DNA of 32,751 bases from Caldilineaceae bacterium (GTDB lineage Bacteria > Chloroflexota > Anaerolineae > Caldilineales > Caldilineaceae), in the NCBI GenBank assembly GCA_026705565.1, contig JAPPAJ010000009.1, positions 1-32,751 on the forward strand, read 5' to 3'. Both the position numbers and the translations under genes were made by a program. The notes beneath the pieces were generated by a model. The model was given only the letters and a program-made list of their open reading frames with translations. It did no database searches and was not told the DNA's origin. This document shows positions 10,660 through 16,591 of this stretch, one piece after another (the first letter of the stretch is position 1; each line of letters begins with the position of its first letter).

Positions 10660-12069
10660 TTGAAGACCATTTCCGTGGCATCCCTGCAACAGGGGATGAA
10701 CATGCCGCTCACGCAGAAGGAATTCCGCACGGACTTCGAGCGGTACCTGAAGGTCGCATCCGTGCGGCGCTGCGACGTGGTGGTGGGCAGCGAACTGGGC
10801 GCTGCCATGATCGGGCTGCCCTTTGTGGAGCGCGGCCACCGCGAGGCCCTGGCCCGTATCCGGGAAGGACAAAATCCCAAGGCCGGCATCCTCACGCGGC
10901 TGAGGGGTTCGGCCACGAAGCTGAACCCGGGCTGGTCCACCGGCCAGACCCAGACACTTGTGCTCAAGGCCCTCGTGGCCCACCGCAAGCAGATTTGGGA
11001 GTACTACGACAACACGTTTGGCCGCCTGGCCAAGAAGTACGAGGTGGTCCTCGTGGCGCCCAGTGCCTGGCTGTGGGATCCGGTGGACGGACGGATGCGC
11101 AACATTGCCTGCGTCTACGATCGCGACGGCACCCGGGTCGGCTATCAGGCGAAGGTTCTCGTCAACCGCAACGAACGGAAACTGGCCCGGCCCGGAACCG
11201 GCTGGCAGCCCATTGAAACCAGTGTCGGCAACATCGGGCTGGCCCTGGGCCACGACGCGCTGATACCGGAGGTGGGCCGCCTGTTCGCCTCCCGCGGGGC
11301 GTCGGTACTGGTGTCCCAACTGGCCTGCCGCACCGACCTGGAATGGGGCCGCGCACACCGCGCCACCCTGATGCGCTGCATGGAAAACCAGTTGTTCGGC
11401 GCGGTCAGCTGCCTGGTGGGGAGGGATCGGCTCGACCCGGATCCCGAAGCGGACGCGCCCTACCGCGGCCACTCCATGATGCTGGCCCCGATCGAGCTGT
11501 CGCCCAAGGGCAACGGCATTCTGGTGCAGACGGACCATCCCCAGCGGCAGAGCATGGTGGTGTGCACGCTGGACTACGAGGCCCTGCAGCTGATCTGGGA
11601 GAGTTCCGAACCCGCCTTCCGGCAGGAATTCTCCCGGGTGTGGAACCTGTACTCCCGATCCCTGGTGCCGGAAGGAGACAGTTCCCGCCTGCTTCCGGAA
11701 CAGGTCCTGATGGATCCCGACGGCGACGCCATCGTGGACTCCGTGGCCGAACCGGTGGAGGCGGACGCCGACCCCGTTGTGGTGGTGCCGCCCTCCCCGA
11801 TCAACCACAAGGAAGCGACCGGGAATTCCAAGCCGACTCCCGGGAATGCGGCGCGCGCGGCCGACGATCCGGACACCGGCGTCGCCCTGGTGCACGGAGA
11901 GGAACTGGTGGTCGAAAGCACCACGCTCGATGATCTGCATGTCATGCAGTCCAGGGTCGTGCCCTGGGAACCCCATCCCACCACCGACCAGCCGCCGCGG
12001 CAGGCCTATGATCCGGGCGACGACCTGGAAGACACCCGCGAGATGGAGACCCTTGACCAAAAGGGGTGA
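10660..12069 (+). CDS. Nitrilase-superfamily protein lacking the catalytic cysteine
   Basis: A 469-residue protein. Residues 1-310 follow the carbon-nitrogen hydrolase fold: first strand ISVASLQQ, Glu45 in VVVGSELGA, Lys165 in GYQAKVLVNRNE with the accessory Glu just after, and GNIGLALGHDALIPEVGRLF aligned to the nucleophile elbow. In active members this last motif reads like ICYDxxFPE; here the Cys position is Gly197 (GGC, one base from TGC). It is therefore probably not an amidase or nitrilase and may be a binding or scaffold protein. Residues from about 340 onward form a Pro/Asp/Glu-rich, probably disordered tail. The TTG start is chosen because the first strand would be lost from later ATGs (10696, 10702). 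It opens a six-gene unit ending in an ABC exporter. Confidence 0.78.
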   Translation: MKTISVASLQQGMNMPLTQKEFRTDFERYLKVASVRRCDVVVGSELGAAMIGLPFVERGHREALARIREGQNPKAGILTRLRGSATKLNPGWSTGQTQTLVLKALVAHRKQIWEYYDNTFGRLAKKYEVVLVAPSAWLWDPVDGRMRNIACVYDRDGTRVGYQAKVLVNRNERKLARPGTGWQPIETSVGNIGLALGHDALIPEVGRLFASRGASVLVSQLACRTDLEWGRAHRATLMRCMENQLFGAVSCLVGRDRLDPDPEADAPYRGHSMMLAPIELSPKGNGILVQTDHPQRQSMVVCTLDYEALQLIWESSEPAFRQEFSRVWNLYSRSLVPEGDSSRLLPEQVLMDPDGDAIVDSVAEPVEADADPVVVVPPSPINHKEATGNSKPTPGNAARAADDPDTGVALVHGEELVVESTTLDDLHVMQSRVVPWEPHPTTDQPPRQAYDPGDDLEDTREMETLDQKG

Positions 12070-12122
12070 GACGCTCCGGAATCCGGTTGTCCGTCTCAAC
12101 CCGGGCTGCGTGACCGGTGACC

Positions 12123-13799
12123 ATGTCCGCTGAGGCACAACGACCCCGCCTGGTGGTTGTGCGACGTCTGTACCTCTACACCATCGCGTTTGTCGGCCTG
12201 GTCGCCATCCACGGCAACCTGCGGTCCCTGGCACGGGAACTGACCAACTTCTGGATCAGCCTTGGCGACGACTGGCTCAATCCGCTTGCCTGGCCGGTTG
12301 AGAACATCCTCGAACGCGGCAGCGTTCTGTTGGTGGCGCTGCTGTTCTTCGCCATCCATTGGACCCTGATTCAGGGCTATCTGCGCGGAGACCGGGCGGA
12401 GGCACGGAGCTCCCTCCGACACCTGTTTGTCTGGCTTTGCCTAGTGGTCAGTTTCTACTGGTTCGGAGCCGGCCTTGCGGACTTCATTTCCGTGCCGCTC
12501 CAGATGCTGCCGGGCCTCCAGGCCGTACCGGCCCGCACAGTGCTGATCTCCCTGCCGATGGCAATCGTGCCGTTGGCGGTTGCGGCCCTGTGCGTGGACC
12601 GGTTCGCGGGCATCTGCATCTCCGAACGCAACGCCAACCGGACGCGCCTGGTGCGATTCATAGCCGCCGGCTGTCAACTGCTGATGCCGCTGACATGCCT
12701 CCTGCTGATCATCGGCTACCTTCACGACGCGGCCTTCATGGTGCTGCTGCCCGCCCTGCTGGGCCGCGCCGTGCAGATGGGCGGCGAGCCCACCACCTGG
12801 ATTCTGCCCGGCAATATCGCCGTGGTGCTGGCCTCCCTGCTGGTGTTGACCCGGCTGGAGCATCTGCGTTGCAACCGGACGGAGGCCGGCGCAACCACAC
12901 TGGTCGCGGCGTTCCGAACCGGTTACCTGCAGGCCGGCATGTCCACGGGTGTAATCCTGCTCTTCATTGCCCTTGGCCTCGCGCTCGAACCCCTGTTGCA
13001 GCCCCTCTTCACGGATCAGCCGCTGTACCTGGGCCGGGTTGGGATCCTGCTCACGGTTGCCGTGACATTCCCGATCGGCCTGGTCTGCTGGCAGCTGTAC
13101 GCCTGGCTCGGCCGTCGTTCCCCGGATCGCAAACCCGCCGCCGAGTGGGCCGTCGCCCTGCCCCGCTTCCGGGACTACACCCTGGCCGCGGTCGGGTTGG
13201 CGGTGCTGGCCGCCGGCATAAGCTCCATCCTGCAGGACCTTCTGCAGGGTCCGCTCGATTCGGACCTTCGCGACAGCCTTGACGCGAACACCGGGCTGTT
13301 CCCTGTCTGGTTTCCCGGCAACGCGGAGGATTGGAATTGGACCTTGGCATCCATTCCCCTGCTGGCCGCGGCCTGGCAGACCATCGGCCGACACGCCCGC
13401 GGGAGTTCGCATTCCATTCTGGTCATCGTTCCCCGGCGCATCTACCTCTATCTGGTTTCGCTGGTCAGCGTCCTGTTCCTGCTGGTGCAAGGCGGTCTCA
13501 TTCTCTACGCTCTTCTACTGGTCTGGACCGGTGGCGAGAACATCTACTGGGAATCGCGGCTGACCGGCATCCCGGTGGCCGTGGTCGTGCTGATCTGGCA
13601 CTTGGTGCTGCTCCGACAGGAAGAGGACTGGCCCGCGCCGGAACCGAACGGGGATCGCGCCCGGACGCGGCTGGACAGGGAACTGGCATCCCTGGATCGC
13701 GAAATCAACGAATTGACCCACCGCCGGGACAGCCTGGTCCGCCAACGGGCAGAGCTGGATGCCGCCGGGCACGGAACACCCGAGGAAGCCCATGAGTGA
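12123..13799 (+). CDS. Multi-span membrane protein, DUF5671-like, with C-terminal coiled coil
   Basis: A roughly 558-residue integral membrane protein with about a dozen hydrophobic segments. The motif RRLYLYTIAFVGLVAI near the N terminus recurs as RRIYLYLVSLVSVLFLLVQG near residues 438-457, and a weaker third copy begins RFRDYTLAAVGLAVLA near residue 348. This repeated pattern resembles DUF5671 membrane domains, which have no known function. The last 45 residues (RLDRELASLDREINELTHRR) form a charged cytoplasmic coiled coil. The ATG at 12123 is preferred; a GTG lies 6 bases upstream. Its end overlaps the next gene by 8 bases, so the two are translationally coupled. Confidence 0.75.
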   Translation: MSAEAQRPRLVVVRRLYLYTIAFVGLVAIHGNLRSLARELTNFWISLGDDWLNPLAWPVENILERGSVLLVALLFFAIHWTLIQGYLRGDRAEARSSLRHLFVWLCLVVSFYWFGAGLADFISVPLQMLPGLQAVPARTVLISLPMAIVPLAVAALCVDRFAGICISERNANRTRLVRFIAAGCQLLMPLTCLLLIIGYLHDAAFMVLLPALLGRAVQMGGEPTTWILPGNIAVVLASLLVLTRLEHLRCNRTEAGATTLVAAFRTGYLQAGMSTGVILLFIALGLALEPLLQPLFTDQPLYLGRVGILLTVAVTFPIGLVCWQLYAWLGRRSPDRKPAAEWAVALPRFRDYTLAAVGLAVLAAGISSILQDLLQGPLDSDLRDSLDANTGLFPVWFPGNAEDWNWTLASIPLLAAAWQTIGRHARGSSHSILVIVPRRIYLYLVSLVSVLFLLVQGGLILYALLLVWTGGENIYWESRLTGIPVAVVVLIWHLVLLRQEEDWPAPEPNGDRARTRLDRELASLDREINELTHRRDSLVRQRAELDAAGHGTPEEAHE

Positions 13800-14283
13800 C
13801 ACCACCGCCCCCGGCCGCTTCTGGCAACTGGACCGCTTTACCATCAGCCTGCTGGTCCTGATCGGCACCCTGTTCCTGGTCGCCCTGGTTTCGGTGGTGG
13901 CCAACCGCGACCGGACCAATGCTGAGGCGTTGCCGCTGTACCGGACGGACAACAGTCCCGAAGCCGTGGTCTACAACGGCTACCTCGCCCTGCAACGGGG
14001 CGAAATGGATCAGTATGAAAAACTGTTTGCGCCGGAACACTGGGTGGAATTGACCGAAAAGGACGGCGAGATCCTGTACGGATACTATGGCGGTGGCACA
14101 TTCGGACTCAAGGTGGTTGATGCCGCCGGCGACGACAGCGCCGCGGTCGTGACCGTGGCCGTCTACCGCACGGACAACCGCGGCTTTTTCGGACTGCGTT
14201 CGCTCCAGGCCGATCAGTGGACGGTTGCTGTCGAACAGGTTGACGGACAGTGGAAGCTTGCCGAACGCCTGCCACAGACTTGA
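13792..14283 (+). CDS. Small membrane-anchored protein, possibly NTF2-like
   Basis: A 163-residue protein with a single N-terminal membrane span (FTISLLVLIGTLFLVALVSVV, residues about 17-37) and an extracytoplasmic domain. The domain begins with a helix resembling the start of NTF2/DUF4878-like folds (SPEAVVYNGYLALQRGEMDQY) and ends in strands (WTVAVEQVDGQWKLAER). A GAGGAAG ribosome binding site lies three bases before the ATG, which is inside the end of the preceding gene. I do not recognise a specific family. Position between the DUF5671-like protein and the ABC ATPase suggests an accessory role in the same system. Confidence 0.7.
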   Translation: MSDTTAPGRFWQLDRFTISLLVLIGTLFLVALVSVVANRDRTNAEALPLYRTDNSPEAVVYNGYLALQRGEMDQYEKLFAPEHWVELTEKDGEILYGYYGGGTFGLKVVDAAGDDSAAVVTVAVYRTDNRGFFGLRSLQADQWTVAVEQVDGQWKLAERLPQT

Positions 14284-14295
14284 GGCTTGTTTGTC

Positions 14296-15156
14296 ATGAC
14301 CATGATCGAGGTATCCAACCTGTCCCTGACCTACCCCGGCGCACATGCCCCGGCGGTGGACGGCATCTCCTTCGAGGTGGGGCAGGGGGAGATCTTTGGC
14401 TTTCTCGGACCCAGCGGTGCCGGCAAGAGCACGACCCAGCGCGTCCTCTGCCGCCTCCTGCAGCACTGGTCCGGTTCCGTGAGCGTCATGGGCCGTTCCC
14501 TGGCCGACTGGGGACAGGGATATTTCGCCCATGTGGGAGTTTCCTTCGAGCTGCCCAACCACTACCTGCAACTGACTGCCCGCGAAAACCTGAAGCTGTT
14601 CGCCAACCTGTACCCTCAGGAGGTGACCCGGTCGGAGGAACTGCTGCGGGTGGTTGACCTGACGGCGGACGCCGACACCAGAGTCGGACAGTTCTCCAAG
14701 GGGATGATGCAACGCCTCAGCTATGTGCGCGCCTTTCAACACGAGCCCCGGCTTGTATTCCTGGACGAACCCACGGCGGGCCTGGATCCGGTCAACGCCC
14801 GCCGCATCACCGACCACTTGCAAACCCTGCGCGCGGATGGCTGCACGATATTCCTGACCACCCACGACATGCATGTCGCCGATCTGCTCTGCGATCGCGT
14901 GGCCTTCATGGTGCAGGGACGGTTGGCGTTGATCGACACGCCGCGCAACCTGCGGCTGGCCCACGGCCGCAAGCAGGTGCAGGTCGAGTACCGCACCGGG
15001 GAGGGTCGGCGGCAGGAACTCTTCGACCTGGACGGCATCGGCGGCAACGAACGGTTTGCCGAACTCCTGCGGTCCGAGGAGATTGAGACCATTCACACGC
15101 AGGAAGCCACCCTCGAGGACATCTTCATCCGGACCACCGGCGAGCAGCTGCTGTGA
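14296..15156 (+). CDS. ABC transporter ATP-binding protein (exporter type)
   Basis: A 286-residue ATPase. Walker A is GPSGAGKS (residues 38-45), the signature is the variant FSKGMMQR (about 133-140), Walker B is LVFLDEPTAGLD (about 152-163) and the switch His lies in TTHD. The FSKGM signature and the C-terminal domain of about 70 residues after the core are typical of CcmA/NatA/drug-exporter ATPases. With the two single-protein permeases that follow, the arrangement resembles the three-gene fluoroquinolone exporter cassette described in mycobacteria (Rv2686c-Rv2688c). The substrate is unknown. Another ATG (14302) and a TTG (14287) are possible starts. Confidence 0.88.
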   Translation: MTMIEVSNLSLTYPGAHAPAVDGISFEVGQGEIFGFLGPSGAGKSTTQRVLCRLLQHWSGSVSVMGRSLADWGQGYFAHVGVSFELPNHYLQLTARENLKLFANLYPQEVTRSEELLRVVDLTADADTRVGQFSKGMMQRLSYVRAFQHEPRLVFLDEPTAGLDPVNARRITDHLQTLRADGCTIFLTTHDMHVADLLCDRVAFMVQGRLALIDTPRNLRLAHGRKQVQVEYRTGEGRRQELFDLDGIGGNERFAELLRSEEIETIHTQEATLEDIFIRTTGEQLL

Positions 15157-15860
15157 GGATGCTGGCTTCGCTCCTGCGCTGGGAGCTGCTGATCAATGCG
15201 CGCCAGGGTATCTGGATGGCCGCCGTCTTCGTGCTGGTCTTCTGGTCCATTGCACTCTCGCTGGTGCCGGCCGCCGCGAAGGTGGTTGTCACCGCCGCCC
15301 TGCTGTTTGTCGAAGTCGGAGTCTTTGCCCTCTACCTGCTGCCGGCCAGCTACTACCTGGAGAAGGGCCAGCGGATTCTCGACGGGTTGATCACAACCCC
15401 CCTGCAGCCAAGCCTCTGGCTGGCCGCCAAGACAACTGTCTTCATGCTGCAGGCGATCGTCGTCAGCATTATCATCACCCTGTTCGCGCTGGGCTGGGAG
15501 ACGGTGCATTGGGGCTGGTTCCTGGTTGCGGTCCTGCTGCTGGCCCTGCCCCAACTGCTGTTCGCCTTTGTCGTGGCCACCCGCTACCACGGCATCTCCG
15601 AGTTCCTGTTCCCGTCCATTCCCGTCATGTTCCTGCTGCAAATTCCGCTGTTGGAATATCTGGATGTGCTGACGGGACCCTTCTGGTGGATCTTTCCCAC
15701 CTTCCCCGGCCTGGCCCTGCTGGACCTCTCGCTGTCGGGAGGCGGACCGGAACAGCCGTGGCTGGCCACCCTGTGGGGCCTGGCCTACGGCACGGTGCCC
15801 GTCTGGCTGTGGGCCGCCCATCGCCTGAAGGTCACGGCCACCCGGCAGGCGGGAACCTGA
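15153..15860 (+). CDS. ABC exporter permease, fluoroquinolone-exporter-like
   Basis: A 235-residue membrane protein with about six spans and no soluble domain. It starts at GTG 15153, overlapping the ATPase stop (GTGA); ATG 15159 is an alternative. The short cytoplasmic loop YYLEKGQRILDGLITTPLQPSLWLAAK after the second span resembles the ATPase-coupling region of ABC-2-type permeases. Its stop overlaps the next permease's start by one base (TGATG). The pair probably forms a heterodimeric channel. Confidence 0.83.
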   Translation: MRMLASLLRWELLINARQGIWMAAVFVLVFWSIALSLVPAAAKVVVTAALLFVEVGVFALYLLPASYYLEKGQRILDGLITTPLQPSLWLAAKTTVFMLQAIVVSIIITLFALGWETVHWGWFLVAVLLLALPQLLFAFVVATRYHGISEFLFPSIPVMFLLQIPLLEYLDVLTGPFWWIFPTFPGLALLDLSLSGGGPEQPWLATLWGLAYGTVPVWLWAAHRLKVTATRQAGT

Positions 15861-16591
15861 TGAAGCTGCTGCGAGGCCTGGCAGCCGGGGATCTCGCGCT
15901 GATTGCCGGCGACCGCACGGCTCAGTTCCTGGTCTTCTACCCCCTCATCCTGGGGCTGGTGGTCCGCTTTGGCCTGGAACCGCTGAACCTACGCCTTCCG
16001 ATCGACCTTGAGCCGTACTACCTGCTCATTGTCAGCCTCTTGATTGCGGTCATGGCGCCCGTCGTGATCGGCACCGTGGCCGGCCTGATGGTCCTGGACG
16101 AAAAGGACACCCGCACCCTGCTGGCATTGAGGGTCACGCCCCTGTCGCTGAAGGCATACCTGGCCTGGCGCGCGGGGATGCCGGTAACGCTCTACTGCGG
16201 TTCGGCCCTGCTGCTGGCCTACATGCTCGGACCCCATGTCGCGCCGCGCGGGGCCGGTTGGATCGTATTGGCGGCACTGGCCGCGGCACCGTTCATGGTT
16301 GCGAGTGCCCTGTTGATTAGCGGGTTGGCAGAGAACAAGGTACAGGGCCTGGCCCTTTCCAAGGGCCTGGGTCCGTTCATCGTGGCCGCCATGGTGGCCT
16401 GGTGGGTTCCGGAACCGTGGCAGTGGCTGCTGGGAGTGTTTCCGTCCTACTGGCCGGTCAAGCTGTACTGGCACATGGCCGAGGGAGTATCGGTGCTGGT
16501 GCCGCTGGTTGGAACGGTGGTGTGCGGCACCGTTTGGATTTGGGCCCTGGCCCATCTGTTCCTGCGGCGCCTGGCACGGCATCTCGCCTAA
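15860..16591 (+). CDS. ABC exporter permease, second subunit
   Basis: A 243-residue membrane protein with about six spans. The N terminus (MKLLRGLAAGDLALIAGDRT) resembles ABC-2 permeases, and the loop LDEKDTRTLLALRVTPLSLKAYLAWR is the expected coupling segment, with the same placement as TTPLQPSLWLAAK in the first permease. The start codon overlaps the upstream stop by one base, so translation is coupled. It is the last gene of the plus-strand unit and converges with meaB 17 bp away. Confidence 0.83.
   Translation: MKLLRGLAAGDLALIAGDRTAQFLVFYPLILGLVVRFGLEPLNLRLPIDLEPYYLLIVSLLIAVMAPVVIGTVAGLMVLDEKDTRTLLALRVTPLSLKAYLAWRAGMPVTLYCGSALLLAYMLGPHVAPRGAGWIVLAALAAAPFMVASALLISGLAENKVQGLALSKGLGPFIVAAMVAWWVPEPWQWLLGVFPSYWPVKLYWHMAEGVSVLVPLVGTVVCGTVWIWALAHLFLRRLARHLA

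Follow-up and report, generated by a model that had tools for sequence, protein, structure and literature searches.

The six same-strand genes A to F that occupy positions 10660 to 16591 on the forward strand of the window (the whole 32,751-nucleotide stretch of Caldilineaceae contig JAPPAJ010000009.1 that was analysed) are best read as a genus-level assembly of three older, independent modules: a nitrilase-fold pseudoenzyme (A), a pair of membrane proteins (C and B) and an ABC exporter (D-E-F). This reading, to which a probability of roughly 0.85 is assigned, follows from the modules lying apart in other genera, and the fuller account, a genus-specific unit in which each module plays the role proposed below, is held with nearly as much confidence. 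The window belongs to genome G000, a 4.55-Mb MAG that is 96.4% complete in 413 contigs, and its genus is represented here by G000 and three congeners, G001 to G003.

The three modules are separable. G031, for example, consists of one contig of 5.4 Mb on which B is found at 478 kb; E follows at 822 kb, and A not until 4,249 kb. Outside the window genus, D-E-F loci are devoid of A, B and C in 10/10 cases from the family and 3/3 from beyond it, none of the C-B loci examined in other genera contains A, and neither B, C nor D-E-F ever stands next to A in 20 fetched A loci of other genera. Indeed, A, B/C and D-E-F were not found together in any locus examined outside the window genus. The initial annotation had put forward the six genes as a candidate membrane or export system, provided that they were conserved; with A, C-B and D-E-F apart in the other Caldilineaceae genera examined, and with homologues of the ABC genes found without the first three genes at all 13 loci inspected outside the window genus, the one-system reading was rejected on gene neighbourhoods in other genera. 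Dissolving the proposed system spares effort on a false unit.

Within the window itself, most of the original gene layout stands. The six open reading frames lie where they had been placed, with an 8-bp overlap between B and C, a 12-bp gap between C and D, and overlaps of 4 bp and 1 bp within D-E-F. The spacing between A and B is revised from 53 to 47 bp: all three congeners have ATT where the window has the ATG at 12123, while they keep the GTG at 12117, which is therefore the most likely start of B and gives a product of 560 residues. A third-position GC content of 0.76-0.86 across the six genes, together with dN/dS values of 0.10-0.42 for each of them against the three congeners, identifies all as real genes, and all are under purifying selection. 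That the six are one transcript in the window organism was also part of the initial annotation, and it remains very likely that A to F form a genus-specific transcription unit. Since a consensus scan of the cluster found no sigma-70-like promoter and terminator-like sites were not above chance, it is the tight spacing that carries the case for co-transcription.

The assignment of D-E-F as an ABC-2 exporter, with one ATPase and two permeases, is supported. Gene D (14296..15156, +) encodes a DrrA-type ATPase (Pfam ABC_tran 6e-25, with a DrrA-like NCBIfam match) that carries a Walker A motif (GPSGAGKST), the signature (within FSKGMMQRLS) and a Walker B motif (LVFLDEP). Gene E (15153..15860, +; GTG start, with an alternative ATG at 15159) is a permease of the FLQE3 family (FLQE3_permease, PF24686, 7.5e-24, 85.1 bits against a cut-off of 60). 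Adjoining it, gene F (15860..16591, +) encodes the second ABC-2 permease, matching ABC2_membrane_3 (PF12698) at 2.8e-7 and 30.4 bits, just below the cut-off of 31.6. The closest described parallel is Rv2686c-Rv2687c-Rv2688c of Mycobacterium tuberculosis, an ABC exporter encoded in one operon by one ATPase and two ABC-2 permeases (PMC8829022); D-E-F shares this composition, and E exceeds the curated FLQE3_permease cut-off. D-E-F is read as an ordinary exporter of this kind, which normally stands alone and would export a small, probably hydrophobic molecule.

Relatives of E occur in 26/46 Caldilineaceae, and it is their surroundings that set the window genus apart. Whereas D-E-F follows C in the window, the gene ahead of it in most relatives is MarR-like or TetR-like; a MarR-like gene lies directly upstream of D in 8/10 family loci of other genera and matched Pfam MarR_2 in the two that were tested. 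A single-sequence query for the MarR-like gene, a weak negative, had no match in the four genomes of the window genus, where the exporter has apparently lost its usual regulator. With this regulator not found and D-E-F placed either 12 bp behind C or behind a second exporter, D-E-F in the window genus has probably been brought under the promoter of A-B-C. The genus thereby offers an example of an exporter that sits behind unrelated genes and has apparently lost the regulator of its own. In another genus (g9; L174, L177, L178 and L180), an array D'-F1-F2-MarR-D-E-F containing two exporters is conserved and stands alone, which makes the exporters a separate set in that genus.

One alternative to the three-module reading is that A to F constitute, in the window genus only, one dedicated export or membrane system in which A-B-C handles or senses the substrate of D-E-F. 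The 12-bp spacing between C and D, the short overlaps and the failure to find the exporter's usual MarR-like regulator in the genus are all in keeping with such a system, as is gene order: in 4/4 genomes of the genus, A comes first, followed by B, C (the pair being in inverted order) and exporter genes, allowing for a contig break in G001. Against it, all the modules live apart in other genera, and in the congeners a different exporter, D'-F1-F2, stands directly after C. The order in G002 and G003 is C-D'-F1-F2-D-E-F, and in G003 gaps of roughly 140-230 bp surround the additional genes. A dedicated system is therefore considered unlikely. The tight spacing in the window and the arrangement shared by all four genomes, with exporter genes after A-B-C, make a genus-level functional link possible, and a link specifically between the exporter and A-B-C is likewise possible but unlikely, its odds being slightly better than those of the dedicated system. 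The assembly of three independent modules is thus the reading kept here.

From that perspective, the gene neighbourhoods point to the two-gene pair of C and B as the conserved, previously undescribed element. The C profile has a match in 101/400 Chloroflexota genomes and DUF5671, the domain of B, in 133/301. Among the strongest matches listed, a comparison short of a full census, 59/59 Chloroflexota genomes that have both C and the DUF5671 gene carry them adjacently, within 2.5 kb. Only C and B are common to more than three of 20 fetched loci from other families, the neighbours otherwise changing; they alone are shared in 19 of these 20, and one locus (L139) was misread by the gene caller, both genes being present there by match coordinates. 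Among the fetched loci C normally precedes B, and the order is inverted in the window genus only. In other Caldilineaceae the pair lies, at most loci, downstream of an M20 amidohydrolase and a DUF3108 lipoprotein; the latter had no match in the four genomes of the window genus (a single-sequence query and a weak negative). Detected in at least about a quarter of the sampled Chloroflexota genomes, the pair is a novel lead.

The pair is not obligate everywhere, because some lineages have B without C. Among 12 loci with B and no C match, a divergent C adjoins B in four; in the remainder C is lacking, mainly in one family (f50), or a contig end intervenes. At the f50 loci (L191, L194, L196 and L197) B without C lies downstream of a membrane protein that, judged from sequence, is CvpA-like or protease-like.

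Such B-only lineages lend some weight to the view that the proximity of B and C merely reflects ancestry and that the two have no joint action. Their adjacency in all 59 genomes among the matches listed, across many families in which every other neighbour changes, argues to the contrary, as does its survival through the order inversion in the window genus; such persistence would be unusual without a functional tie, and mere common descent is accordingly an unlikely explanation. Functional pairing is thus preferred, and it is probable, on the strength of this conservation, that C and B form one complex.

Gene B (12117..13799, +) encodes a polytopic membrane protein with about 13-16 transmembrane helices by hydropathy followed by a C-terminal coiled coil. 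Its DUF5671 assignment holds (PF18920, 57.7 bits against a gathering score of 28.4; E = 1.4e-15), although the window copy is diverged, with two units detected compared with three to four in its relatives. The closest named relatives come from Caldilineaceae/Caldilineales MAGs (bin34, SB0661_bin_34 and Plut_88876) at 81-88% identity. The tail varies between lineages: the coiled coil of the window gives way in some families to a DUF3842-like domain and a last transmembrane helix, and in others to short domains. For instance, in two homologues (L129 6228-8210 and L131 6308-8269) a C-terminal DUF3842 domain replaces the coiled coil. A sequence-profile search of B against the PDB returned coiled-coil and chance matches only, an AF2 model of mean pLDDT 56 was too poor for a structure search, and a literature search found no paper naming DUF5671.

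Gene C (13792..14283, +) was correctly described as a small anchored protein, with a single N-terminal transmembrane helix. A profile search against the PDB gave nothing significant for C, and no Pfam model matched above its cut-off. With its AF2 model (pLDDT 75.6), the top Foldseek matches to the domain that follows the helix are mostly NTF2-like and include SnoaL-type, CaMKII association-domain and RsgI9 NTF2 structures, with E-values down to 5e-5, probability 1.0 and TM-scores of 0.37-0.50 normalized by query. The domain therefore likely has an NTF2-like fold, although with such modest TM-scores the details of the model are not to be trusted, and it is probably extracytoplasmic. C would thus share its fold with the NTF2-like/SnoaL-like superfamily and differ from it in being anchored by one transmembrane helix and paired with B.

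Together, these features suggest how the pair might work. B and C would form one envelope complex in which the outer domain of C binds a ligand or partner and the membrane-spanning B passes on a signal or forms a channel; the effect would reach the tail of B, probably cytoplasmic, as the output. Somewhat short of even odds, and offered tentatively, is the more specific proposal that the pair is an undescribed Chloroflexota membrane complex, a sensor or channel, in which the target of an anchored, outward NTF2-like protein is a DUF5671 protein of several units whose inner tail (a coiled coil, a DUF3842-like domain or a short domain) is swapped between lineages, and to which the window genus has wired an exporter and a pseudo-nitrilase.

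The third module, gene A (10660..12069, +; TTG start, 469 residues), had been called a pseudo-nitrilase, and the call is well founded. Its CN-hydrolase fold is assigned by sequence profile (Pfam CN_hydrolase 1.4e-14) and by alignment to PDB nitrilases, in which a glycine of A falls opposite their nucleophilic cysteine. The Glu-Lys-Cys catalytic triad of nitrilases is thus incomplete: glutamate and lysine are kept, and cysteine is replaced by glycine (LALGHD in A) in 22/22 aligned orthologues. As aligned, A lacks a residue that the nitrilase mechanism requires. It shares the profile-defined fold and the glutamate and lysine positions with the nitrilase superfamily, and departs from it in this substitution and in an extra, conserved C-terminal tail motif. 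The tail is long and of low complexity, with the motifs LDDL...W and TxEM standing out in the orthologue alignment; L423, L426, W436, T459, E461 and M462 are invariant in 18/18 sequences. The end of the tail follows the consensus (D/E)ETxEMDAL, preceded by LDDLxVxxS...W. The motif is a candidate docking peptide.

With its nucleophile missing, A probably serves in binding or as a scaffold, acting through its fold and the conserved short motif near its C-terminus. It is present in 46/46 Caldilineaceae and presumably kept for binding, not catalysis; as a pseudoenzyme found family-wide with a conserved tail motif, it provides a second handle. At the 20 A loci fetched from other genera the neighbours, with gene names read from sequence, are LysW-type lysine genes together with RecO, a ferredoxin-NADP reductase-like gene, or others. 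No literature match for nitrilase pseudoenzymes was found by the terms used. In family f35 (L166-L171), relatives of A that are shorter, at about 304 residues, also lack the nitrilase cysteine, and one contig has a pair of A-like matches separated by about 1 kb.

The junction at which the exporter joins the pair differs between the window and its congeners. In G002 and G003, a 97-bp direct repeat, which combines the end of C with the start of D, stands on either side of D'-F1-F2 (by blastn, in congener locus L021 at 11967-12063 and 15322-15417, and likewise in L023). The window lacks D'-F1-F2 and has one copy of the repeat at its C-D junction (14230..14326, +), and a query with F2 found no match anywhere in G000. 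A single recombination between the 97-bp repeats links the states with and without D'-F1-F2; it may have been an insertion or a deletion, the four-point distance sums being nearly equal. That the window organism really has the two-exporter array and that the absence is an artefact of assembly or completeness is quite improbable: the window is a contig of a MAG with 413 contigs and 96.4% completeness, all three congeners carry D'-F1-F2, and an assembler could in principle collapse flanking direct repeats, but F2 is without a match in G000 and the repeat copies of the congeners share only about 77% identity with that of the window, so that window copies, if as different, would not be easily merged.

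In G001, D'-F1-F2 lies directly after C and D-E-F on a separate contig (C102 and C99). A D-E-F truly unlinked from A-B-C in this genome was considered and dropped: TnpB-like fragments end both contigs, which could well be contiguous in the actual genome, and it is plausible that G001 has the same order as G002 and G003. The contig ends between F2 and D-E-F hold transposase-like open reading frames (L022 1-1853 and L172 3250-4197; TnpB halves and an ISAs1-like element by their sequences), which likely broke the assembly at this point.
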